From Clostridium sp. (GTDB lineage Bacteria > Bacteroidota > Bacteroidia > Bacteroidales > Muribaculaceae), in assembly GCA_023666615.1 (NCBI GenBank), contig JAMPBQ010000001.1:103042-137058 (forward strand): a stretch of DNA of 34,017 nt. Reading direction: 5' to 3'. The position numbers were made by a program, and so were the translations under genes. This document shows, piece after piece, positions 894 to 34,017 of the stretch. The notes below the pieces were generated by a model, which saw nothing but the letters and a program-made list of their open reading frames with translations, searched no databases and had not been told where the DNA came from. Position 1 is the stretch's first letter; each line of letters begins with the position of its first letter.

Positions 894-2972
894 CTAGTCG
901 TTAAGATAATAAGGGGTTGACCCGTAAATAATGTGCTCATTGCGACCGCTTCCTTGCACAAGGAAGAATGAGCCTCCTATTTTTACATATCTATTGCTTC
1001 CCTTTTTATACAATTCTGCGAATTGTGAGGCCTTCTTATAGCCGGATCCATCCTTAAGATAAAGCAAAATGTTCTTTATTTTAGTATAATCATCAGAATT
1101 TGTGTTAAGCTTGCCGGCTTGATATTGGACGTGGGCATCGTTTGTTTCAGTCGCTGTTGAGTGGCTGATATTGCTGTGTGAAGTTGAACTAGATGAATTA
1201 TTTTGTGCTGACGACAAAGAATTTGTGCTATTTGTTGGCTTGCGGGCTGGTTCTGATGCATAAGAAGTCGATGAACTTGACGACGTGCCGTATTTCGCTT
1301 CATTTTGTTCATGAATCCTTGTTACATTGTCCTTGCCGGAAGTCAAGCTCCCAACAAATGCGTTATGGCTGTCCTCGTAAATTTTCTTTTGTTCTGCAAT
1401 AATATCATAGCCTTGATTCCTTAAATTTTCAATCGCTTGGCCTTGTAACAGGCAATACTCTGAATAAGTCATATCTGGCCTATTCATAGCTCTTTTTGTA
1501 TTCTCGAACCTCTGCATTTCTTGCTGTTGCACCTGAAAAGCTGAAACTACCATTATCTGATTGAAGGCGTTTTGGAAATACCCGGGCTGGGACATTTGTT
1601 CGGCCAATGTGCCGCCAGTCTGGTAATTTGTTTTCTGTGCTGTCATCATTGAATTGTATTGCATCATAGCGTATGACTGCTGCAGTCCCATAGCGGCGCC
1701 TTCTAGTATGTTGGCCCACAATTGGGCGCGGCGCTGGCGCTTTTCTTCATCCCACATATTCTTTTGAGAAAAATCAGCTGATCCGTCAGGCATAAGCTTT
1801 ATTCCCATATAATAGTCTCCCGCATAAGCGAATCCGTGCGTGGAATCATATATCAAGGTCTTGCTCTTTTTAGGTTCAATAATTCGCCTTCCATGTATGT
1901 CGTAGGCTCCTTCTTTATTTCCCTTATATACCTTTATAAAAATTTCATCTCCTCTCCCTCGTTCGATTTTTGCATCATCATATTCTCTGCCATATTCAAC
2001 CGGCGAAAGCAATTCACTCCCTGATATATCATAGAGGCCGGTATTAAGTTTTCCGTTATAACATAGGCGCAGATACTTAAAGTATCCTATAATATCTTTA
2101 TCCTTTTCAAATTCCAATTCATCACAGGGAAAACTCGTTTCTAATATTTTTGTTCCGGTAAGGGTAAACACTTTGACATTGTCTAATGATAGGCACTTAA
2201 AGCAGGCGAGATCATCAGTAAGCTTCCAAAATTTTATTTTTTCATATATCGCGGGAATGATTATATTGCCATGGCCATCGGCAACGCCCTGTCGCCCTCT
2301 GTCTTTGATTCTTACCCACGCAAAACCATTTTGGTTCTTCTCGCTCAAAGGGCTATCATTTACCATCAGTTGTTGGGATTTTTTTGATTCATTTTCCTTT
2401 AGGTTTCTAGTCTTTTCAATATCCTTGGCAAATTCATGCAAACGCCAAAATTCTTTCACATAAGATTTGCTCACCTTGCCTATCGACTTAATTTTATAAT
2501 TTTTGTCGAAATAATAGAATCCGTTTTGCAAATTGAAAAAGATATGGTCATCGCCGTGCTTATACTCTTTCCCATCGATGCCTACTTTACTGTCACCATT
2601 TACAAAAAAATACATACATTGAGAAATGTCAACGTCCGAACCTGAAAATATATATTTATACTTAGGCTTAACTATTTCCTTGCCCGACAAATCACAAATA
2701 CCCTCCAGGCCATTTTTGGTCACTATGAAAAATCCTCCAAATGCGGGAGAAGGATAGAATCTCACTCGTCCATAACCGCGAGAGGAAGGGATAATTAGTT
2801 CCTTCTTGTAGTTGTATATATTGCCTTCGTTTTCGAAATATACATAGCCATTAGCGGTTACAAAGCTTCTCATCTCAGCCTTAGAGACTATCAAAGATGC
2901 TGCAATCAAGGCAATTAAGCAAATGCATTTTTTTAGAAAATCAAACATATTAAAGTTTTTTAGTTTTTCCAT
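894..2972 (-). CDS. Secreted WG-repeat-like protein
   Basis: This protein of about 692 residues starts with a hydrophobic signal (about residues 14-28, ending VSKA). Its first half (about 40-385) has degenerate WG (KWG-type) beta repeats: GLEGICDLSGKEIVKPKY, RQGVADGHGNIIIPAIYEKI, NTGLYDISGSELLSP and GAYDIHGRRIIEPK. These predict a beta-rich repeat scaffold outside the cytoplasm. The middle is Gln- and Met-rich helix, then a Ser/Thr/Asn-rich linker (about 565-625), then a C-terminal domain of about 60 residues that I do not recognise. It stands alone, AT-rich (about 35% GC in a line I counted), between a terminator and its own promoter. The -7 box ends only 10 bases before this ATG, so the Met nine codons in (ATG at 2946-2948) may be the true start; that start also gives a cleaner signal peptide. 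Function unknown. Confidence 0.8.
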   Translation of the reverse strand: MEKLKNFNMFDFLKKCICLIALIAASLIVSKAEMRSFVTANGYVYFENEGNIYNYKKELIIPSSRGYGRVRFYPSPAFGGFFIVTKNGLEGICDLSGKEIVKPKYKYIFSGSDVDISQCMYFFVNGDSKVGIDGKEYKHGDDHIFFNLQNGFYYFDKNYKIKSIGKVSKSYVKEFWRLHEFAKDIEKTRNLKENESKKSQQLMVNDSPLSEKNQNGFAWVRIKDRGRQGVADGHGNIIIPAIYEKIKFWKLTDDLACFKCLSLDNVKVFTLTGTKILETSFPCDELEFEKDKDIIGYFKYLRLCYNGKLNTGLYDISGSELLSPVEYGREYDDAKIERGRGDEIFIKVYKGNKEGAYDIHGRRIIEPKKSKTLIYDSTHGFAYAGDYYMGIKLMPDGSADFSQKNMWDEEKRQRRAQLWANILEGAAMGLQQSYAMMQYNSMMTAQKTNYQTGGTLAEQMSQPGYFQNAFNQIMVVSAFQVQQQEMQRFENTKRAMNRPDMTYSEYCLLQGQAIENLRNQGYDIIAEQKKIYEDSHNAFVGSLTSGKDNVTRIHEQNEAKYGTSSSSSTSYASEPARKPTNSTNSLSSAQNNSSSSTSHSNISHSTATETNDAHVQYQAGKLNTNSDDYTKIKNILLYLKDGSGYKKASQFAELYKKGSNRYVKIGGSFFLVQGSGRNEHIIYGSTPYYLND

Positions 2973-9725: not shown

Positions 9726-10529
9726 TTATTTGAAAGTATATGTAATGTAAGCTCTTGAAGTCTCTGGGGCCGTTTCAGGATTCGCCCGGGTGAAACGATG
9801 CCGGCGCACCTCTATGGCGCAGGCGTTGCGCACGGTCTGGTTGGTGGCGGCCGGTGCGTCGCCCCCGGTGAATTTCACGTCTGTTACCTGCCCTTCCCGA
9901 TTGATTGTGAGGGTCATTTTCACGCTGCCGGTCACAGGGCTCTTCACCGCTCCATAGGCGGGTATCGCCCATCCGTCGCCGGCGCTCCCGGCTCCGTGGC
10001 CGGTATGCGCCCCCTGTGCCGTGGGGCTGTCTGGCCGTCCGCTGTTGCCGTTGTCCTGCTTCCCGTCTGCCGTATTGTGCTTCCCTGAGGCATGGCTGAA
10101 GGCGTTTGTCACCTCATTTTCCGCCATCCGCTGCTCCTCCTGCCGCTTCAGCTCTTCCTTTGATGGCCCTGCTGGCTTTTCTGGCTTTTTCTGCTCTTTC
10201 ACGGGAGATTCCTCCTTGGAAGCCACGGTCGGAGGCGGGTCGCCTGCGGGCCCCGCGTTGGCTGCGTCAGTGCCGGATGCCGGCGTCGGCTGCGATTCGT
10301 TCCTTTCGGGGCTTTGCGCAGCGGACGGGTCGTCCACGGGCGCCATGTTGGGCGATGCGGGCATCTCCATCACGTCGATGTATTCCTCAAAGTCAATCTC
10401 CACGGCATCCTGTGTCATAGCATCAACGCTGCTGTCGGCAAGCGACAGGTGCGTACACATCATCAGCGATACTGCCGCGAGAACTGCCGCGGCCGTGCCA
10501 AATGCTGAGTATGCTCGTGGGGAAATCAT
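9726..10529 (-). CDS. tonB: TonB-like energy transducer
   Basis: This 267-residue protein has an N-terminal membrane anchor (about residues 8-31). A long Pro/Glu/Lys-rich periplasmic spacer follows (about 55-195). The C-terminal TonB-type domain covers about 196-267: GSVKMTLTINREGQVTDVKF, then RHRF and a final YITYTFK strand. TonB transmits proton-motive force from ExbB-ExbD to outer-membrane receptors. It lies downstream of exbD, separated by 123 bases that contain a 44-base tandem duplication, and six bases upstream of the phosphoesterase gene. The spacer is compositionally biased (Asp, Pro, Ala, Gly), as is usual. A TolA-like role is less likely given the exbB/exbD context. Confidence 0.83.
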   Translation of the reverse strand: MISPRAYSAFGTAAAVLAAVSLMMCTHLSLADSSVDAMTQDAVEIDFEEYIDVMEMPASPNMAPVDDPSAAQSPERNESQPTPASGTDAANAGPAGDPPPTVASKEESPVKEQKKPEKPAGPSKEELKRQEEQRMAENEVTNAFSHASGKHNTADGKQDNGNSGRPDSPTAQGAHTGHGAGSAGDGWAIPAYGAVKSPVTGSVKMTLTINREGQVTDVKFTGGDAPAATNQTVRNACAIEVRRHRFTRANPETAPETSRAYITYTFK

Positions 10530-10652: not shown

Positions 10653-11063
10653 TTAGTTGGCGCGGGTGGCCAGCACCATCTTTACTCCGGCCTTGGTGCC
10701 TACGTTGAGCACCTCCACCACCTTGCCGTACTCCACCGCCTTGTCGGCATACACGGCCACGGCCCGCTGCGTGGTGTCCTGCTCCATCACAGTTTGGAGG
10801 TACACTGCCAGCTCATCGAGGGCGAACTGCTGAGGCTCGCCCTCGGCGTAAGCCGCCGATACAACGCCCAGCGAATCAACGTACACCCTCGTGAGCGGCT
10901 TGGCGGAGGTCTGCTCGTCGCTCTGAGGCAAGTTCACCTCGACCGCTGTGGGAAAAACGAAGGTGGACGTTGCCATAAAGAACACCAAAAGCAAGAAAAT
11001 GACATCTGTGAGCGACGCCATCGAAAATGCCGCCAGCATTTCATTTTGTCTCTTCAGCCCCAT
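10653..11063 (-). CDS. exbD: ExbD/TolR-type biopolymer transport protein
   Basis: This 136-residue protein has the ExbD layout: a short cytoplasmic N-terminus, then one membrane helix (about 14-38) with the conserved proton-channel Asp in SMASLTDVIFLLLVFF (Asp20). A periplasmic domain of about 95 residues contains the VEVNLPQS strand and the VYADKAVEYGKVVEVLNVGTKAG region. It forms the proton-driven motor with ExbB and drives TonB. Its natural partner exbB lies 1.8 kb upstream at 12831-13460, separated by the darT-darG pair. A -7-like box lies just ahead of it (11083-11090), which could give it independent expression. Confidence 0.92.
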   Translation of the reverse strand: MGLKRQNEMLAAFSMASLTDVIFLLLVFFMATSTFVFPTAVEVNLPQSDEQTSAKPLTRVYVDSLGVVSAAYAEGEPQQFALDELAVYLQTVMEQDTTQRAVAVYADKAVEYGKVVEVLNVGTKAGVKMVLATRAN

Positions 11064-11082
11064 AATTTTATGATTATATGCT

Positions 11083-11090
11083 CAAAGTTA
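11083..11090 (-). promoter_or_regulatory. -7 box upstream of exbD
   Basis: TAACTTTG on the minus strand is an exact match to the Bacteroidetes -7 element in the 56-base gap between darG and exbD. No clear -33 TTTG lies at the right distance. If used, it would start transcription about a dozen bases before the exbD ATG. Confidence 0.4.
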
Positions 11091-11119
11091 CGGAATTTTC
11101 AGATAATGCGGAAATAAAA

Positions 11120-12190
11120 TCACAGAAAATCGCCATATAGCTTCAAATGATTGAATGCCGTTTCCAAATGCTCAGGCTTGAACAATCGTTCTTTCCTTGT
11201 GCTCCATTTATGAATTTCTTCATTTATGATGCTAAAAACCAAACGTGAGTCTTTGTTTTGCCAATCGTTCAATGCTGTGTTTGAATTAAGAATATAATCG
11301 ACAGTGGATATCAATTCCAATGCATAATTGGAATAAAACGGCCAAAGGAATTCTTGTGTCCTGTGGCATATGGCGCACAAGTCATCGCCAACGGTGCTTG
11401 AAAGGTACTTGGCGGCCTCGCTTTCGGCGTCTTCGGTAAGCCATATGTAGTCGAAAGGCTTGTTCTGCATTCCGTTCATTCCTTTTATATAGCTGCCATT
11501 CAAATAGTAAAGTACATGCGCAACCTTCCCGCCAGAATATGGGCCATAGATATAAGGCTTGAAGTCAATCTTAAAAATGCCTTTTCCGCCGAAGCGCTGC
11601 ATAAAATACACCATTTTCTCTACCGCGAAAACAGATGCGAACTCCCCGTATTTGTTCATGTCGGCAATCATCAAAAGCACCATGGCCCTTGCCGGGGTGA
11701 GATTTGCCCTCTTGGCCTTCATTCTATCCGCTATTGCGTCTGTGGGTTCATAAATGAAAATTTCGCAATTCGTGTCTTTCAGCTCGTCTTCAATCATGGA
11801 CCTTACTTTTGTCCAGTCCAATCCGCCATTGCTTGACCCTAAGGCGGGAATTGCGATGGATTTGATTCCGCGTTGAGTGATGGTGTCTTTTAGCGCGAGC
11901 AATCCTTGTGAGATATATGTGTATTCAGACGGCAATCTCCAGTGGGTCTTTGTGGGGAAATTGATGATTGTTTTAATGACATTGTTTTGATTTGATTCTT
12001 CGGTCACAAACATTTCCCCGACTTTGAAGGACTTGGATAAGCATGCCTTTCGGTATGCTTTGTAATTTTCAGGAAATTGCTCACGAAACTGCAATGCAAT
12101 TCCTTTGCCCATAACGCCTACGGTGTTCACTGTATTCACCAGGGCTTGAGCTTCGCTTGCCAATAAATCGCCTTTTACGTGATGTATCAT
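11120..12190 (-). CDS. darG: DarG antitoxin: macrodomain DNA ADP-ribosyl hydrolase
   Basis: The 356-residue protein begins with a macrodomain (about residues 1-150). Its ADP-ribose site is visible: GDLL (7-10), NTVNTVGVMGKGIALQF (19-35) with Asn22, FPTKTHWR with Lys81, and GSSNGGLDW (118-126). The second part (about 165-356) resembles the C-terminal toxin-binding region of DarG. DarG removes ADP-ribose that DarT places on thymidines in single-stranded DNA, and its C-terminal part also blocks DarT directly. The gene starts 10 bases after the darT stop, the standard toxin-antitoxin order. It is AT-rich (22 of 60 GC in one line counted) compared with exbB (35 of 60), pointing to horizontal origin. 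Confidence 0.9.
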   Translation of the reverse strand: MIHHVKGDLLASEAQALVNTVNTVGVMGKGIALQFREQFPENYKAYRKACLSKSFKVGEMFVTEESNQNNVIKTIINFPTKTHWRLPSEYTYISQGLLALKDTITQRGIKSIAIPALGSSNGGLDWTKVRSMIEDELKDTNCEIFIYEPTDAIADRMKAKRANLTPARAMVLLMIADMNKYGEFASVFAVEKMVYFMQRFGGKGIFKIDFKPYIYGPYSGGKVAHVLYYLNGSYIKGMNGMQNKPFDYIWLTEDAESEAAKYLSSTVGDDLCAICHRTQEFLWPFYSNYALELISTVDYILNSNTALNDWQNKDSRLVFSIINEEIHKWSTRKERLFKPEHLETAFNHLKLYGDFL

Positions 12191-12200
12191 ATTTTCCTGT

Positions 12201-12815
12201 TTAAAAATAGTAATTCGGATATATCACAACTTTCTTGTCTTCTATTCCGAACAATTTCAATTCCTCTTTTGCTTGACTGTCGTAAACAACGTAGCCAATT
12301 ATGCTGTCTGGCGGCAAATCCTCCTTCACCAATAGTTCTGCCTCTTTTCTTCGCTTCAAATCAATGTCGGTCTCAATGTTCCATTGTGAGGCGTAGACAT
12401 CTTCGTATTTTATTATCCTGTCAATGTATGGCAAGGATTCACGGCCGAAGAACCTTGTTAAGGAGCTTAAGGCATGCCCATCCGTAAAGATGCATTCTGT
12501 GCCGCTTTCAAATAGCCCTTTGAGGGAAAGCACGCAATATACGATTTCTCTTGGATGCCGCATTGTTACGCCTTTGTATCCATGTTGGACTACGTATAGC
12601 ATTGGTGATCTGGGACCGAAATAGAACGGTACGCATTCGCTTAGATTTATGCCGGCGAAACGCTTATTTTTTCTTATGTTTATAATCTGTGAATCTCCTA
12701 TGTTCACATACTTTTCATCGCAATTAGGAGAGTTTGGCCTCAAAAGGCCAAACTTCAAAATATGGGGGATATTGTCTATATGAGTTATGCGGAACGCATA
12801 TTTAAGAGTATTCAC
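12201..12815 (-). CDS. darT: DarT toxin: DNA ADP-ribosyltransferase
   Basis: This 204-residue protein matches DarT (DUF4433) in length and motifs: the NAD-binding start AFRITHIDNIPHILKFGLL with His12, then KRFAGINLSECVPFYFGPRSPMLY (51-74), TDGHA (111-115), and RRKEAELLV with the probable catalytic Glu160. DarT uses NAD+ to ADP-ribosylate thymidine in single-stranded DNA, which blocks replication and gives abortive phage defence. No inactivating change is visible, so the enzyme is probably functional. It starts only 15 bases after the exbB stop and therefore has no room for its own promoter outside exbB. Base composition is about 37% GC in a counted line, below its neighbours. Confidence 0.92.
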   Translation of the reverse strand: MNTLKYAFRITHIDNIPHILKFGLLRPNSPNCDEKYVNIGDSQIINIRKNKRFAGINLSECVPFYFGPRSPMLYVVQHGYKGVTMRHPREIVYCVLSLKGLFESGTECIFTDGHALSSLTRFFGRESLPYIDRIIKYEDVYASQWNIETDIDLKRRKEAELLVKEDLPPDSIIGYVVYDSQAKEELKLFGIEDKKVVIYPNYYF

Positions 12816-12830
12816 GATGTCTTTTTATTG

Positions 12831-13460
12831 TCAGCAGGCGGGTTCGTTCAGGAGGTCCATGAATTCCATGGTCTTTGATTCCATGAGGTTCATCACCTTG
12901 TTGACGCGGGCCACGAGATAGTTGTAGGAGAAGAGAGCCAGGATGCCCACAACAAGGCCGGCCACCGTCGTAACCAAGGCCGTGTAGATGCCCCCGGCGA
13001 AGGAGCCGATGGAGGCGCTGTTGCCGGCGGACGCGATGGAATAGAACGCCTCAACCATGCCGATTACCGTGCCGAGGAATCCCAGCATTGGCGCCCCTGC
13101 GGCCGTGGTGGCCAGCCACGCAAAACCCTTGCTTAGAGCAGCCACTTCGAGGTTGCCGGTGTTTTCAATGGCCACCAGCACATCGTTCATCGGTCGCCCT
13201 ATTCGGTTGATGCCCTTCAGAATCAATCGGCTGTAGGGCGAATCTGAATTTTTGCACAGGCGTATCGCGCTTTCAAGGTCGTTTTCATGTATGTAATCGC
13301 TGATGCGCTTCATGAACGACTCGTCAACCTTTGCCGCCTTGTTAACCACGATTGCCCTCTCAATGAGGATGTAAATGCTGATTATGGCCAGCACCGCCAG
13401 CACAATCATCACCCATCCCCCCTGCAGGCACAAATCCCATATAGAAAGTGAATCCTCCAT
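12831..13460 (-). CDS. exbB: ExbB/TolQ/MotA-type proton channel protein
   Basis: This 209-residue protein has three membrane helices (about 14-34, 113-137 and 155-180) and the MotA/TolQ/ExbB core GAPMLGFLGTVIGMVEAFYSIA (about 122-143). The last helix is GIYTALVTTVAGLVVGILALFSY. With ExbD it forms the inner-membrane proton motor for TonB. It follows pdxJ and is followed by darT rather than exbD. Its leader is a 56-base tandem array of a 7-base unit in which AAAGG, a Shine-Dalgarno-like sequence, recurs directly before the ATG. The start at 13458-13460 is fixed by the family length. Confidence 0.92.
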   Translation of the reverse strand: MEDSLSIWDLCLQGGWVMIVLAVLAIISIYILIERAIVVNKAAKVDESFMKRISDYIHENDLESAIRLCKNSDSPYSRLILKGINRIGRPMNDVLVAIENTGNLEVAALSKGFAWLATTAAGAPMLGFLGTVIGMVEAFYSIASAGNSASIGSFAGGIYTALVTTVAGLVVGILALFSYNYLVARVNKVMNLMESKTMEFMDLLNEPAC

Positions 13461-13516
13461 CCTTTATCCTTTATCCTTTATCCTTTATCCTTCATCCTTC
13501 ATCCTTCATCCTTCAT
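13461..13516. repeat. Eight-copy 7-base tandem repeat in the exbB leader
   Basis: On the plus strand there are four copies of CCTTTAT (13461-13488), then four of CCTTCAT (13489-13516). On the coding strand this is four ATGAAGG then four ATAAAGG units, abutting the exbB ATG and including the pdxJ stop codon. Each unit brings a new Shine-Dalgarno-like AAGG. Arrays of this type vary in copy number by slippage. Confidence 0.95.
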
Positions 13517-14226
13517 TTCAAGCATTCCTTGTACTGCTTGATGGCCTGCTGCAGGCCTATGTACAGCGCGTCGCTGATCAGGGCATGGCCGATGGAAACC
13601 TCGTTGAGATAGGGGAGTTGCTCATGCAAATACTTGAGGTTCTCCAGGCTGAGGTCATGGCCGGCGTTTACCCCAAGGCCGCATTTGTGGGCGACAAGGC
13701 TGGCCTCAACGAAAGGAGCCACGGCTGCCACGGGATCGGTAGGGTAGAGGTCGGCGTAAGGCTTCGTGTAAAGCTCCACTCTGTCGGCGCCGGTCTTTGC
13801 CGCCAGCTTGATTTGTTCCGGATCCGGATCGACGAATATCGACGTGCGTATGCCGGCTTCCTTCAGCCTGTCAACGATGCCGGTGAGGAATTCAAGGTTT
13901 TCCGCCACGTTCCACCCTGCGCTGGAGGTGAGGGCGTCGGGGGCGTCGGGCACAAGGGTCACCTGCTCGGGGCGCACCTTCAGCACCAGCGACATAAAAT
14001 CGTCGGAGGGGTACCCTTCGATGTTGAACTCTGTTTTCACCAAGGGCCGCAGAGCGAAAACATCGTCATGGCGTATGTGCCTTTCATCCGGGCGGGGATG
14101 CACGGTGATGCCATCGGCGCCGAACGATTCGCAATCCTTGGCCACTTGCTCCACATTGGGCACGTTTTCGCCGCGGGCGTTGCGCAAAGTGGCCACTTTA
14201 TTGATATTTACACTCAAATGTGTCAT
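13513..14226 (-). CDS. pdxJ: Pyridoxine 5'-phosphate synthase
   Basis: This 237-residue protein is full-length PdxJ. Motifs are clear: [16 protein letters not shown] (4-19), [13 protein letters not shown] (about 39-51), [21 protein letters not shown] (about 191-211) and [14 protein letters not shown] near the end. It condenses 1-deoxyxylulose 5-phosphate with 3-amino-2-oxopropyl phosphate to make pyridoxine 5'-phosphate in the DXP-dependent vitamin B6 route. It is the first gene of the minus-strand row that runs into exbB and diverges from the ACT-like gene and nadK. Its stop codon lies in the first units of the 7-base tandem repeat. Confidence 0.97.
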
Positions 14227-14326: not shown

Positions 14327-14366
14327 TGTTTAGAATTTAACAGCAAAAATAGTGAGAATTTATCAA

Positions 14367-29844: not shown

Positions 29845-32103
29845 CTAAAAATGTAAATCGTTGGATATGCCATACTCGATTTCCGGCTCTTGAACTGTAG
29901 TTATTGATTCAGAGTTATGAAGACAACTCTGCTGTTTGTTGACAAGGCCGTTGAGAGTCTGTCTGCTCCAAATCTGGTTGGCCATTCGCGGAACGATGCC
30001 TTCTGTGAGTCGAATACCAAGCGAATAGTATTTGCCTATCTTGATGCGGAGGTTAGGCATGTCAATCTGCGCTTCGCCAACCTTTTGCTTATAGTATCCA
30101 AAGGAGACTTTTTCAATTTCATAATAGCCCTCAATTGCATTATCCACAATCGGCAAAAGATACCTGGCCGCGGAGATGTCGCCCTGCGGCATACGGAGCA
30201 TAACGTAGGTTTTGCCCTCAGCTTCGCGGTTGCAAAACGACTGATAGAGCTTCGTTATGTTCTTGCGGTCATCTTCGCCAACTTCCTCTTTGCGTACAAC
30301 GCAAGTAAGGAACTTGCCTTTGTCGGCTGACGAACTTTCTACCTTGCCTACCTCCTGGCGTTTGGCTTCGACATAGCTATAGGGATCTTCGCCCAATGGG
30401 CATGGGGCAACGTAGAAATTCTGCGAGAGGGTTTCGAGCAGATGTGCGTTCTCTTTGGCAAATTTGGGGTCATTGTCAAGGGCAACGGAGAAAATGCCCT
30501 TGTCAAGGAATGGGCTGTAAGTTTTTCCAAGCACAGATTGGAAATTCTCTTTGAGCCACTTTTCGCCGTCCACATCCGGGTGGGCGGTCATGGCGTAGAA
30601 AGAAAAGCGGTCTTTGAGCATATCCTGTATTTCGGTTCGGAACTTCTTGCGGACAGCCGATTTCCAAGAGGCTTTCGCTCCGGCATTGGCGCGAGCATAT
30701 AGCGAGAGAACGAAAAGGAAATTGACATCGTAGTGCGACACAATGAGAGTGTCGCGGTCGTAGAGCCGATTCTCGAATTGACGGCAAACGTTAGGCTCGC
30801 CTCGATGCCGCTCGGTCTTATCCTCATAGCTCAGTGTCAAGGGGTCAATCTTCGCGGAGATGAAGAAGTTGGGGATTACGTTGTAGCCCTCTGTTACATC
30901 ATCGCGAAGCTGTATTTTGCGGTAACGGTCTTTTTCATCATCCTTGCTTGAAGGATTGAGGAAAAGATTCAGATTCCACTGAATCACGTTACGCGCATAG
31001 GTGTATTGCTTATACACCGACTCTTTGCCGGGGTTGCTGCCTATCTTGTAATACTTTGAGTCGCCGATATAGTACATATCGTTCTGTTCCTCACGGTTGG
31101 TCAACAATCCGTCATAGGTATAGAAGTGGTCAACGAGTTTTCCATCGGCTTGGTCTTTCAAGCCGACAGGCACATCGTTATCACCGATTAGTTCGTCAAT
31201 CATTGCCTCGAAAACGATGTGAAAATTCTTCACAAGCAGATATTCGCGCTGCGTGGCCGAAGTCTTAATCTGAAATGCCTTGTCGAAGAAGGCATAGCAG
31301 AGTTCCCACAGACGCACTGCCACGTCAGAGAAATACTTGTATTTGATTTGACGCAGGCGGCGTTTGCCGTAGCCGTCAATATATCGCTCGAACTGCGCGC
31401 CTTTGATGAGCTTGAAGCCGAAAGGCGTGGCAGTCTTGAATCCGAAGCGGTCGGAGATGTAAGCGAGGATGGAGAAGAAAATCACGATGAGTTCTTCATC
31501 GAAGTTGATTTGCCTTTTCTTGTTGACCGGGTTTATATACACCGGCTGCTCTCCCTGCACCACTGCGGTAGTGTTGGAGATGGTGCGAGTCCAGTTTATC
31601 TTGTTGTAGCCGGAGTGGATGTTTTTCAGCACGAAAGTGAAGAAGGACTGATTTTCTTTCGCAAATCGAATGAGCGAAAGAATCACGTCAAGCCATGTGT
31701 TTGCTTTCTTCTTCGCGCTGCGCCCCTCGCTCTCCACCTGCTCGCGAAGCACAATTTCGTTCTTTTCGTGGGTGTCGTTGAACACCACGATTGCGCGGTG
31801 AATCCAGACGGCAAATTCATAGATGAATTTTGTTTCATGCGGCTCAATCTTGGCATCATCGAGATTGACAAGCGCGGCAGGAGCATAGCCGGAGATGCCG
31901 TCGCCATGACCGAACACACGTCCTTTCTCGTCAATCAACACCTTAGGCAGAACGAAAACAACATCTTTGATTTTCGGATTGTAGTAATAGCCTACATAGC
32001 TCACGGATATGTTGCCCTCCATATCTTGGAGGGTAAACAATCCGTCAAGGACGCTCTCAACGTCCTTGACCTTGTAGGCGTATTCTTCAATCAGAAGTTT
32101 CAT
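29845..32103 (-). CDS. LlaJI-type restriction nuclease subunit (McrC-like)
   Basis: This 752-residue protein matches the LlaJI restriction endonuclease family. An N-terminal region of about 290 residues contacts the GTPase partner in McrC-like systems. A PD-(D/E)XK nuclease core follows: FEAMIDEL with Glu299, LVDHFYTYDGLL (323-334), and YIGDSKYYK with Asp348 and Lys350. The long C-terminal part is unassigned. The core residues are present, so cleavage activity is expected. It is the last gene of the operon: its ATG overlaps the McrB-like stop by four bases. In LlaJI, this subunit works with an McrB-like NTPase and C5-methyltransferases. Base composition is close to that of the neighbours (48% GC in one line counted). 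Confidence 0.85.
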   Translation of the reverse strand: MKLLIEEYAYKVKDVESVLDGLFTLQDMEGNISVSYVGYYYNPKIKDVVFVLPKVLIDEKGRVFGHGDGISGYAPAALVNLDDAKIEPHETKFIYEFAVWIHRAIVVFNDTHEKNEIVLREQVESEGRSAKKKANTWLDVILSLIRFAKENQSFFTFVLKNIHSGYNKINWTRTISNTTAVVQGEQPVYINPVNKKRQINFDEELIVIFFSILAYISDRFGFKTATPFGFKLIKGAQFERYIDGYGKRRLRQIKYKYFSDVAVRLWELCYAFFDKAFQIKTSATQREYLLVKNFHIVFEAMIDELIGDNDVPVGLKDQADGKLVDHFYTYDGLLTNREEQNDMYYIGDSKYYKIGSNPGKESVYKQYTYARNVIQWNLNLFLNPSSKDDEKDRYRKIQLRDDVTEGYNVIPNFFISAKIDPLTLSYEDKTERHRGEPNVCRQFENRLYDRDTLIVSHYDVNFLFVLSLYARANAGAKASWKSAVRKKFRTEIQDMLKDRFSFYAMTAHPDVDGEKWLKENFQSVLGKTYSPFLDKGIFSVALDNDPKFAKENAHLLETLSQNFYVAPCPLGEDPYSYVEAKRQEVGKVESSSADKGKFLTCVVRKEEVGEDDRKNITKLYQSFCNREAEGKTYVMLRMPQGDISAARYLLPIVDNAIEGYYEIEKVSFGYYKQKVGEAQIDMPNLRIKIGKYYSLGIRLTEGIVPRMANQIWSRQTLNGLVNKQQSCLHNSESITTVQEPEIEYGISNDLHF

Positions 32104-33677
32104 TCAATAGAAAGTTCGAGGTCGGGTACATAAAGAGTCCTAATCCCTTGTTCGGTTGATTTAGATAGTTTGGCAACGAAGTCTGCGAGATAGGTGTTGC
32201 CCTCCTCGAAGAAGTCGGTAAACTCAAGGTTCTTGCCATCGAGTTTCTTAAATTCCTCGCGCCCAACGTTGAAATCTTTGAGAACGTCAGTCCAAAGATA
32301 GAACAGCACCTTATTGAGGAATACCTTTTCCGAAATAACATCATTGTCTTTCAGCTCCGGATCGCTTTTCTTATCGGGCTTGGCGAAAAAGAATCCCATC
32401 TGCTTGTCCGCGCTCTCGGTCAACTCCGATATTATCGGGTTGATTGTGCGGAGGAAGTCAGCCCATGAGTAGCGAGTCTTGCCAATCTCAAACGAGCGGT
32501 TAGAGAGTGAGGGATCGGGGTCTTTATCGAAGAAGCGGATAGGAATATACTCCCAATTCCAACGACGCTTGAAAGCGGAGTCAATGGGGAAAAGCGACTG
32601 GTCGCTTGTGTTCATCGTAGCCCAAATATAGAGGTTGGGCGGCAGTAGCAATTTCTTGCCGGAGAGAATGTCTGCACCGATAACTTCGGTCTTGCCGTTA
32701 TCCTTTTGGAGAACGAAAGAGCGGATAGCCTCGGCGGTTCCCTCCGGGAGCTTGGCGAAGCCGTTCTCATCATCACGGAGGAACTGCGAGATGTCCTCAT
32801 CGGCATTTATGGCGTATGAGGATGCGCCCTGTGAGTTGCGGTCGAGCAACTGAAAGAGGTCGCCGAAGATTTGGGCGCAGTTGCCGCGATTGATTTCCTC
32901 AATAACGAGGAAATGCGGATTTTCGAGGTCTTTCCAAGCGGCGACGTAGGCTTTCAGAAAGGCTTGAGGCACATACTTGTAGACAATCTTGCGTTCAAAA
33001 GCCTTTTCATTGGCGGCATTGCTGGCATGATGAACGGTAGTGCCAACAAAAGCGTGAATAGGCATCGACTGCATTGTCGGCTTGTAAGCGCCAACAAAAG
33101 AAGCATAGTCACTATCGGGGTGGAACGTGGTGCGGACAGTGTTGTTATCATCTGTCATTCCGTCAATCTTAAACGACTTGCCTGTGCCGGGCGCCCCGTA
33201 AAATATCAGTTGAAGCGGCTCGTCAATAGGCGATATTGTTGCTGATGGTGAACCAATCTCGTCATCGGCAGAAATAAGCACAGATGCTGGTGAAATTTGG
33301 ATTTGGTCTGCACGATAGAATGCCACAGAAAAATTGGGGGTTTCTCCATTATCTATGCGTTCTATACAAACAATGTCGCCCTCGACAATATCAAGAGACC
33401 TAAAAAGTGGTCCAAGGCCAGGGATTCGTTTCTCCCTGTTTGAGTTAGCAAAGAAAACAAAACGATAGTCGTAAGACTCCGTTGTTGGAGTATCAGTCTT
33501 ATATGATGTAGTAGAAGCAGAAAAATTCACTTCAATGACACTGCCATTCTCAATATGGGTGTTATTGAAGAATGATTCATAATCGAAGTCGTTTGGCATA
33601 CGAATATAGACTTCGTGAGTCTTCGTTTGCCCTACTTCAGCTTGGGTGAGTTTCTTGTAAAATTTTGAAGTATTCAT
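32100..33677 (-). CDS. McrB-like AAA+ GTPase subunit of the restriction system
   Basis: In this 525-residue protein the N-terminus (about 20-125) is a possible DNA-binding domain with PGLGPLFRSLDIVEGDIVCIERI. The AAA+ core shows Walker A GAPGTGKS (161-168), Walker B FLVIEEINRGN (256-266), sensor-like ATMNTSDQSL (353-362) and the arginine region FKRRWNW (369-375). The INRGN and MNTSDQS motifs are characteristic of McrB-type GTPases. It should translocate DNA or drive assembly and activate the nuclease subunit encoded next. It overlaps the methyltransferase gene and the nuclease gene by ATGA at each end, which keeps the three proteins in step. Confidence 0.92.
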   Translation of the reverse strand: MNTSKFYKKLTQAEVGQTKTHEVYIRMPNDFDYESFFNNTHIENGSVIEVNFSASTTSYKTDTPTTESYDYRFVFFANSNREKRIPGLGPLFRSLDIVEGDIVCIERIDNGETPNFSVAFYRADQIQISPASVLISADDEIGSPSATISPIDEPLQLIFYGAPGTGKSFKIDGMTDDNNTVRTTFHPDSDYASFVGAYKPTMQSMPIHAFVGTTVHHASNAANEKAFERKIVYKYVPQAFLKAYVAAWKDLENPHFLVIEEINRGNCAQIFGDLFQLLDRNSQGASSYAINADEDISQFLRDDENGFAKLPEGTAEAIRSFVLQKDNGKTEVIGADILSGKKLLLPPNLYIWATMNTSDQSLFPIDSAFKRRWNWEYIPIRFFDKDPDPSLSNRSFEIGKTRYSWADFLRTINPIISELTESADKQMGFFFAKPDKKSDPELKDNDVISEKVFLNKVLFYLWTDVLKDFNVGREEFKKLDGKNLEFTDFFEEGNTYLADFVAKLSKSTEQGIRTLYVPDLELSIE

Positions 33678-34017
33678 TGAAGAAATGGTTTTATGATTGT
33701 TGCAATGCGTTTAGCCATTAATGGTGGGACTGCATTGCCTATTTGCATGTACGTTTTAAGATATGCTCCGAGGAATAGATAATCATCGGGGAAAGACTGT
33801 ATTCTTGCAGCTTCGCGAGGTGTTATCGTTCTTGTTTGGAATGGGTGGATGTGCGACAAACAGTCCATCCTCAAATGTGCTGTAATTGTCCGGCAAGGCT
33901 TGTCGGCAATCAGTTTGTAGTATTTGTCCTTGAAGCAATGGTTTCTATGTGAATAAGGCATGATGTCACGGATTTTTTCATCGGTGGCATCATCCCCTTG
34001 GTCAAGTCGAGCAAAGA
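33674..34017 (-). CDS. DNA (cytosine-5) methyltransferase, C-terminal part (cut by window edge)
   Basis: The open frame continues past the right edge of the window, so the start is outside. About 114 residues are visible. RTITPREAARIQSFPDDYLF is C5-methyltransferase motif IX, and YMQIGNAVPPLMAKRIA is motif X. The catalytic Pro-Cys motif and the target-recognition domain are outside the window. An in-frame Met at 33961 is internal, since 18 sense codons precede it. It protects host DNA from the McrB-like/LlaJI-like restriction pair downstream, and its stop overlaps the McrB-like ATG. Confidence 0.9.
   Translation of the reverse strand, partial: FARLDQGDDATDEKIRDIMPYSHRNHCFKDKYYKLIADKPCRTITAHLRMDCLSHIHPFQTRTITPREAARIQSFPDDYLFLGAYLKTYMQIGNAVPPLMAKRIATIIKPFLQ

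Follow-up and report, generated by a model that had tools for sequence, protein, structure and literature searches.

A DarTG2-type toxin–antitoxin pair inserted between exbB-like and exbD-like genes in a member of the Muribaculaceae

Introduction

How does a toxin–antitoxin pair come to lie between two genes that are normally neighbors, and how are the pair and the genes it separates transcribed? This question is raised by a 34,017-nt stretch of DNA (hereafter, the window) from a Muribaculaceae genome (G000), in which darT and darG separate an exbB-like gene from an exbD-like gene. DarT is a toxin that modifies thymidines in single-stranded DNA; its antitoxin, DarG, removes the modification and also binds DarT. 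The DarTG family is reported to function in anti-phage defense (PMC11481870). A first-pass annotation of the window proposed that a phage-defense pair had recently entered the operon of a Ton motor, so that the toxin level might follow the demand for that motor. Here we examine the identity of the pair, its site in related genomes, and its probable transcription.

Results

Layout of the interrupted operon

All genes of the locus are encoded on the minus strand. The row begins with pdxJ (13513..14226; PF03740, 1.6e-94), which precedes exbB in all 33 relatives compared. The upstream half of the split pair is an exbB/tolQ-like proton-channel gene (12831..13460; PF01618, 4.6e-28), and the downstream half is an exbD/tolR-like gene (10653..11063; PF02472, 2.5e-20). 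A tonB-like ORF follows at 9726..10529. It showed no Pfam match and only weak similarity to TonB (NCBIfam PRK10819, 6e-4, below the cut-off; TonB in the PDB, E = 0.97), and a homologue follows exbD in 31 of the 33 relatives, the other two sequences (L050 and L054) ending nearby. Between the two motor genes lie darT (12201..12815) and darG (11120..12190), with 15 nt separating the exbB stop from the darT start (12816..12830), 10 nt separating darT from darG, and a tail of 56 nt between darG and exbD (11064..11119). The gene order, common strand, coordinates, and spacings given in the first-pass annotation were exact, and the conserved pdxJ-exbB-exbD-tonB row that it named was borne out by the relatives.

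The gap between pdxJ and exbB (13461..13512, minus strand) is filled by a heptanucleotide tandem repeat, GAAGGAT/AAAGGAT. The repeat is located just before the exbB start, and a change in its copy number might affect the translation of exbB or the extent of read-through into darTG.

Identity and integrity of darT and darG

The darT gene encodes a DNA thymidine ADP-ribosyltransferase toxin of 204 aa, with a GTG start codon. The protein matched the Pfam family PF14487 (E = 5.5e-44), passed the NCBIfam toxin_DarT equivalog NF048013 (160.4 bits; cut-off, 150), and matched the PADLOC DarT model (1.4e-52). A relative in the PDB is the Thermus DarT chain of 7omv (3.2e-17). Glu160 is retained and aligns with position 160 of that chain, which bears Ala; an E160A substitution in DarT has been described (PMC5179494).

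The 356-aa DarG consists of an N-terminal macrodomain and a C-terminal DarT-binding-type domain. It passed the NCBIfam antitoxin_DarG equivalog NF048014 (377.6 bits; cut-off, 250) over residues 2–349 and matched the PADLOC DarG model (3.9e-107). The macrodomain was detected by PF01661 (4.4e-20) and by the 5m31 macrodomain structure (1.2e-39), and residues 188–348 matched the second (antitoxin) chain of 7yk3 (E = 1.4e-4). Residues N22, K29, and K81 (the lysine of 'FPTK') are kept, together with GSSNGGLDW at position 118. K81 corresponds to K80 of Thermus aquaticus DarG, a change of which is reported to inactivate the enzyme (PMC5179494). Both reading frames are intact, and the two motifs that had been highlighted before, Glu160 of DarT and GSSNGGLDW of DarG, were confirmed.

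The locus combines a DarT-family (DUF4433) toxin bearing the invariant catalytic glutamate with a macrodomain DarG bearing the catalytic lysine and a DarT-binding-type C-terminus. Systems whose DarG contains a macrodomain are classed as DarTG2, those with a NADAR domain as DarTG1 (PMC11543638). Judged by these sequence features, darT and darG form a complete, canonical DarTG2-type pair. Both proteins are presumably active, and phage defense is the likely role of the pair, by analogy with the family. The DarTG2 systems of T. aquaticus, Mycobacterium tuberculosis, and Vibrio cholerae share with the window the toxin-then-antitoxin order, DarT Glu160, the two-domain DarG with its macrodomain lysine, and the DarT-binding-type C-terminus. 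As far as tested, the window differs from them only in its location between two proton-channel motor genes.

Empty sites in related genomes

We determined the distance between exbB and exbD, measured from alignment ends, in a sample of 49 genomes of the genus. ExbB and ExbD could be paired in 44 of them, the remaining five having no strong ExbB match. The median distance was 15 nt, with 36 genomes at 30 nt or less, five at 31–100 nt, and three above 100 nt. The pair is thus no more than 93 nt apart in 41 of the 44 measurable genomes, in agreement with the earlier claim that the two genes are normally adjacent. The three wide distances belong to the window's genome (1770 nt), G004 (564 nt), and G043 (504 nt). 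For the family, 198 genomes were sampled. Both genes were among the matches listed (150 for each gene) in 126 of these, and the gaps were 60 nt or less in 101, 61–130 nt in 18, 131–250 nt in three, and more than 250 nt in four. The gaps of G223 (397 nt) and G184 (207 nt) contained no convincing gene. Empty sites are therefore the rule in both samples, as expected if a toxin–antitoxin pair entered a housekeeping operon. The window alone carries darTG between exbB and exbD among the 44 genus genomes, and DarT itself was found in two of the 49.

A tree of PdxJ, ExbB, and ExbD placed G000 and G043 as sisters (100/99), with L054 next (95/76, not starred), within a clade of six (100/100) that also contains L050, G004, and G015. 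The gap is 0 nt in L054, the nearest outgroup, which provides the empty-site comparison that the first-pass annotation had called for, and 15 nt in L050. G015, the sister of G004, has a gap of 87 nt without a gene. Because empty sites are widespread in the tree, including in L054 and L050, the empty state is most likely ancestral, and darTG is a derived insertion into a normally contiguous gene pair. An assembly artefact is unlikely, since the window lies inside a 1.08-Mb contig and an insert is likewise present here in the sister, whose record was assembled separately.

Searches with DarG (E up to 1e-20) yielded matches in 15 of 397 family genomes, and searches with the G043 macrodomain (E up to 1e-30) in 18 of 393 genomes of the order, the query's own genome included in each case. 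Within flanks of about 1.5 kb around these family and order matches, exbB or exbD was found in G000 and G043 and in no other genome. In the genus of G133, six of 27 genomes gave matches, all of which were already among the earlier DarG matches. A search for the same arrangement elsewhere, as had been proposed, thus recovered a DarG-type gene at the same site in G043, while the full darTG pair occurs there in the window only.

Other inserts at the same site

In G043 (contig CANNVE010000003.1), exbB and exbD are separated by a single gene of 158 aa, matching only the macrodomain of DarG. It scored 241.1 bits with the NCBIfam DarG model, just under the cut-off of 250, and 4.4e-73 with the PADLOC DarG model, and N22, K29, and the catalytic-type lysine are all present. 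Around the insert, we found remnants of neither darT nor the DarG C-terminus, and no DarT was found in the G043 genome. Between the window and G043, the macrodomains are 63.6% identical, as compared with 97.6% for ExbB and 89.7% for ExbD. The macrodomain of the G133 DarG is 69.7% identical to that of the window, and the G564 DarG is 65% identical to the macrodomain of G043.

A macrodomain tree, from which the fragment L043 was dropped beforehand, placed G000 and G043 in one clade with the DarGs of G133, G181, and G237 (85/83, not starred). In the best tree, G000 groups with G181 and G237 (71/61), and a grouping of G000 with G043 was not rejected (p-AU 0.405). The tree does not order the members of this clade and does not arbitrate between one insertion and two.

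The insert of G004 (Muribaculaceae bacterium Zag1) is a different gene, encoding a 118-aa four-helix protein of the Pfam family 23S_rRNA_IVP (PF05635; L005:1935-2291, plus strand). Elsewhere, G117 contains a free-standing DarG-type macrodomain frame of 156 codons (L042, 1504-1986), similar in size to the G043 gene, with no darT in its examined flanks. It reads as a free-standing frame and not as a decayed copy.

Transcription of darTG and exbD

The Bacteroides -7 promoter element has been given as TAnnTTTG (PMC7366714). No exact match to it was present within 200 nt upstream of the window's darT, and no terminator-like site was found on the minus strand in the exbB–darT gap. The 15-nt spacing and the lack of an exact -7 element upstream make shared transcription with exbB likely; darTG would then be transcribed by read-through from pdxJ-exbB.

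A different picture was obtained for the tail between darG and exbD, which contains a promoter-like element, TTTC-20 nt-TAACTTTG, on the minus strand. Its -33 element, TTTC, has one mismatch to the consensus, and its -7 element begins at 11090, 27 nt upstream of exbD. This is the sole site with one mismatch or fewer on the minus strand of 4.6 kb, as compared with 0.51 expected in shuffled sequences. It lies inside the inserted stretch, at a point where most relatives lack the space for a promoter. The position of TAACTTTG argues for a second start, as opposed to one transcript across darG and exbD, and exbD-tonB is probably re-initiated from here. The same scan, which may miss real promoters, gave no site before pdxJ; an exact -7 element alone occurs at 14351, outside the scanned stretch. 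A sigma-70-type scan, with a model not suited to this phylum, gave 12 matches versus 5.6 expected, an excess of no clear meaning over the region; one match spans the darT start (12834-12807) and another precedes exbD (11102-11073). Rfam at gathering cut-offs gave no match in the window.

Gene neighborhoods of darTG in the family

Eight loci of the family have darT and darG with a readable upstream side. The nearest same-strand ORF, with distances estimated from alignment starts, ends 15, 6, 29, 28, 77, 91, 8, and 15 nt before darT, and thus within 30 nt in six of the eight. These upstream neighbors are the exbB-like gene in the window, a DarT-HD gene (itself a DarT gene) in G133, a cytidylyltransferase gene, presumably kdsB, at the one site shared by G181 and G237, and genes for thiamin pyrophosphokinase in G279, a CDP-alcohol phosphatidyltransferase in G273, and a DUF3256 protein in G053. 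In G383, the neighbor is a 167-aa ORF, 77 nt away, which has no Pfam match and overlaps an OmpA-family gene ending about 215 nt before darT. Two loci were left out of this count: G065, in which darT is cut by the contig end, and G002, whose DarT is of the longer HD type. In G002, the nearest ORF of at least 100 aa ends 70 nt upstream and an 83-aa ORF lies 3 nt upstream; counting this locus as not close gives six of nine.

For comparison, 17 loci were taken from other families of the order, two of which were dropped (one because it lacks darT, the other because its darT extends beyond the locus). An ORF ends within 30 nt upstream of darT in two of the 15 usable loci. The Fisher p value for this modest enrichment in the family ranges from 0.006 to 0.052, depending on how G002, L105, and the duplicate G181/G237 site are counted. 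Riding directly behind another gene may thus be a habit of darTG in this family, and the counts are suggestive only. Among the eight family loci, an exact -7 element precedes darT by no more than 200 nt only in G383 and G279, whose gaps are the widest. On the downstream side of darG, five of the eight loci (four of seven sites) have one within 150 nt, the same-strand rate in these loci being 0.46 per kb.

Two features of individual loci were observed in addition. The darT of G237 reads as two ORFs of 93 and 111 aa (L111:7823-8456, minus strand) next to an intact darG. This split may mean that the gene has truly decayed or that the sequence contains an error; in G181, darT at this site is intact. 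Long DarT proteins in which the DarT domain is followed by an HD domain are encoded in G133 (453 aa; L109:8069-9430, minus strand), adjoining a canonical darTG, and in G002 (444 aa; L087:1462-2796, plus strand), beside a DarG-like gene.

Composition and mobility

Over whole genes, the GC content is 40.5% for darT and 43.0% for darG, versus 55.1% for exbB and 58.4% for exbD. These values replace the 37% and 58% of the first-pass annotation, which had been counted on one line of each gene, and preserve its observation that the pair is richer in AT than exbB. The range for pdxJ, exbB, exbD, and the tonB-like ORF is 55–61%, and the mean of 24 other ORFs in the window is 54.8%. The suggestion that this composition marks a recent entry did not hold. 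The family darTG loci measured have GC contents of 0.39–0.49 and mostly higher-GC neighbors (mostly 0.53–0.65), except in G383, where the surrounding region is itself low in GC. The single macrodomain gene of G043 is at 0.42. As low GC is common to darTG across the family, it is no evidence of recent arrival. Synonymous sites of the operon are near saturation between G000 and G043 (dS 1.1 to 2.2) and are unusable for dating the insert.

The cassette does not qualify as a mobile genetic element. No convincing target-site duplication or inverted ends were detected, the best shared word being one of 8 nt (0.15 expected) that lies inside darT on one side. None of the 28 window ORFs scanned with Pfam belongs to an integrase or transposase family, and no mobility gene was seen beside darTG. 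The DarG relatives in viral contigs (seven loci), phages (499 records), and plasmids (89 records) are all less than 60% identical, and no phage or plasmid source was identified.

Elsewhere in the window, a WG-repeat protein gene (894-2972, minus strand) has the lowest GC content (0.39) of the 24 other ORFs. A restriction-modification-like locus (29845-33961, minus strand) contains an LlaJI-type endonuclease ORF (PF09563), an McrB-like AAA ORF (PADLOC REase_II), and a C-terminal piece of a cytosine methylase (33674-33961), the GC content of its two large ORFs being 0.47–0.48.

Ton or Tol motor

The MotA_ExbB and ExbD domains are present in the two motor proteins of the window. The ExbB-like protein scored 94 bits with the TolQ model and 48.9 bits with the ExbB model, both below the NCBIfam cut-offs, and its closest solved structures are TolQ. 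NCBIfam scores are likewise higher for TolR than for ExbD in the downstream gene, again below the cut-off. A second operon, exbB-exbD-exbD-tonB, is located near 871.2-874.5 kb of the same contig, and its TonB carries a TonB_C domain (80.9 bits). Its ExbB shows the same order of scores, TolQ above ExbB, so the score order does not discriminate Ton from Tol. The separate operon with its TonB_C-bearing TonB makes a response to Ton demand doubtful for the window operon, which need not be a Ton motor. The "Ton motor" label, and the tie of the toxin to Ton demand, are not justified.

Discussion

We consider it likely, with a probability of about 0.72, that a canonical two-gene DarTG2 cassette, probably serving in phage defense, was inserted into the pdxJ-exbB-exbD-tonB row, where it separates the exbB/tolQ-like gene from the exbD/tolR-like gene. 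It would have arrived after the split from the empty-site relatives, in the lineage of the window itself or in the ancestor that this shares with G043. Transcription of darTG would depend on read-through from pdxJ-exbB, possibly the usual mode for darTG in the family, and exbD-tonB would be re-initiated from a promoter in the 56-nt tail of the insert. Such a promoter would explain why an interruption of 1.77 kb is tolerated. The first-pass annotation offered another explanation, in which darTG entered recently, the dose of toxin is coupled to a Ton operon, loss or silencing of that operon is penalized, and the toxin level follows Ton demand. The 15-nt spacing without an exact -7 element upstream of darT, which makes shared transcription with exbB likely, speaks for such coupling. 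Against it, recency is not supported by a composition that is common to the family's darTG and the sister's macrodomain gene, a promoter-like element precedes exbD, and the genome has a separate exbB-exbD-exbD-tonB operon. Moreover, the sister G043 kept the operon with no DarT found, and insert-free relatives are the rule. We regard the penalty and the link to Ton demand as speculation, and the coupling as a whole as very improbable. A broader proposal would make the Muribaculaceae darTG a promoter-less hitch-hiker: arrest of host transcription by a phage would starve the cell of DarG and free DarT. In the window, the hitch-hiker would use the motor operon and give the cut-off genes a new promoter, and the sister would keep the DNA-repairing macrodomain as an antidote to DarT. 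We consider this unlikely.

The insertion into the exbB-exbD pair may also be traced further back. One possibility, to which we give even odds, is that darTG entered the pair once, in the common ancestor of G000 and G043, and that darT and the DarT-binding half of DarG were later lost from G043, leaving an intact macrodomain to act as an antidote on its own. Among the 15 family genomes with a DarG match, it lies at this site in the two sister species only, and both macrodomains fall into one clade with three family DarGs, their joint grouping being compatible with the data. G043 has N22, K29, and the catalytic-type lysine, and the T. aquaticus DarG macrodomain by itself is reported to suffice as an antitoxin (PMC5179494). 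On the other hand, the two macrodomains are far less alike than the flanking ExbB and ExbD and no closer to each other than to DarGs of other genera or families, G043 shows no darT or DarG C-terminal remnant around its insert, and the best tree puts G000 with G181 and G237. The same divergence speaks for two independent arrivals at a permissive site, with darTG entering in G000, a free-standing DarG-type macrodomain in G043, and the 23S_rRNA_IVP/four-helix gene in G004. Three different inserts occur in the six-member clade, which holds three of the four family gaps above 250 nt (126 measured among the matches listed), and G117 offers another free-standing macrodomain. We rate two arrivals as possible, though somewhat improbable. 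They require DarG-family genes to have hit the same gap twice in sister species, an unlikely coincidence because the other 13 family DarG matches have neither exbB nor exbD in their examined flanks. For this reason, we lean towards one ancestral darTG insertion, after which G043 lost the toxin.

In principle, there is a precedent for a bare darTG within a housekeeping unit. The M. tuberculosis darTG is reported to be co-transcribed with dnaB, and this dnaB-darT-darG arrangement, like that of the window, joins darTG to a housekeeping gene and lies outside a defense island (PMC12170906). It differs in being described as ubiquitous in its species complex (PMC12170906), whereas the pair in the window splits exbB from exbD in one of 44 genus genomes. 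Within the Muribaculaceae, the darTG loci of G181/G237, G053, G273, and G279 are likewise two-gene, low-GC cassettes behind a same-strand chromosomal gene, at 8 to 91 nt. No conserved adjacent pair was shown to be interrupted at these loci; in the window, one is. Among the matches listed in the open-licence literature, covered mostly by titles and abstracts, no description of darTG between exbB and exbD was found. As far as these searches show, three things are new: the location, the splitting of a motor gene pair, and a comparison among relatives whose site is empty, full, or occupied by a macrodomain alone.

At one orthologous position, the relatives have an empty site, a full darTG, or a DarG macrodomain alone, which offers a clean comparison and a useful natural experiment. 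The locus allows one to ask how a toxin–antitoxin pair survives inside a housekeeping operon, how the dose of the interrupted genes is maintained, and whether an antidote is kept by a relative that has no toxin. If placement for read-through were general in the family, the transcription of host genes would be part of how DarTG is set.
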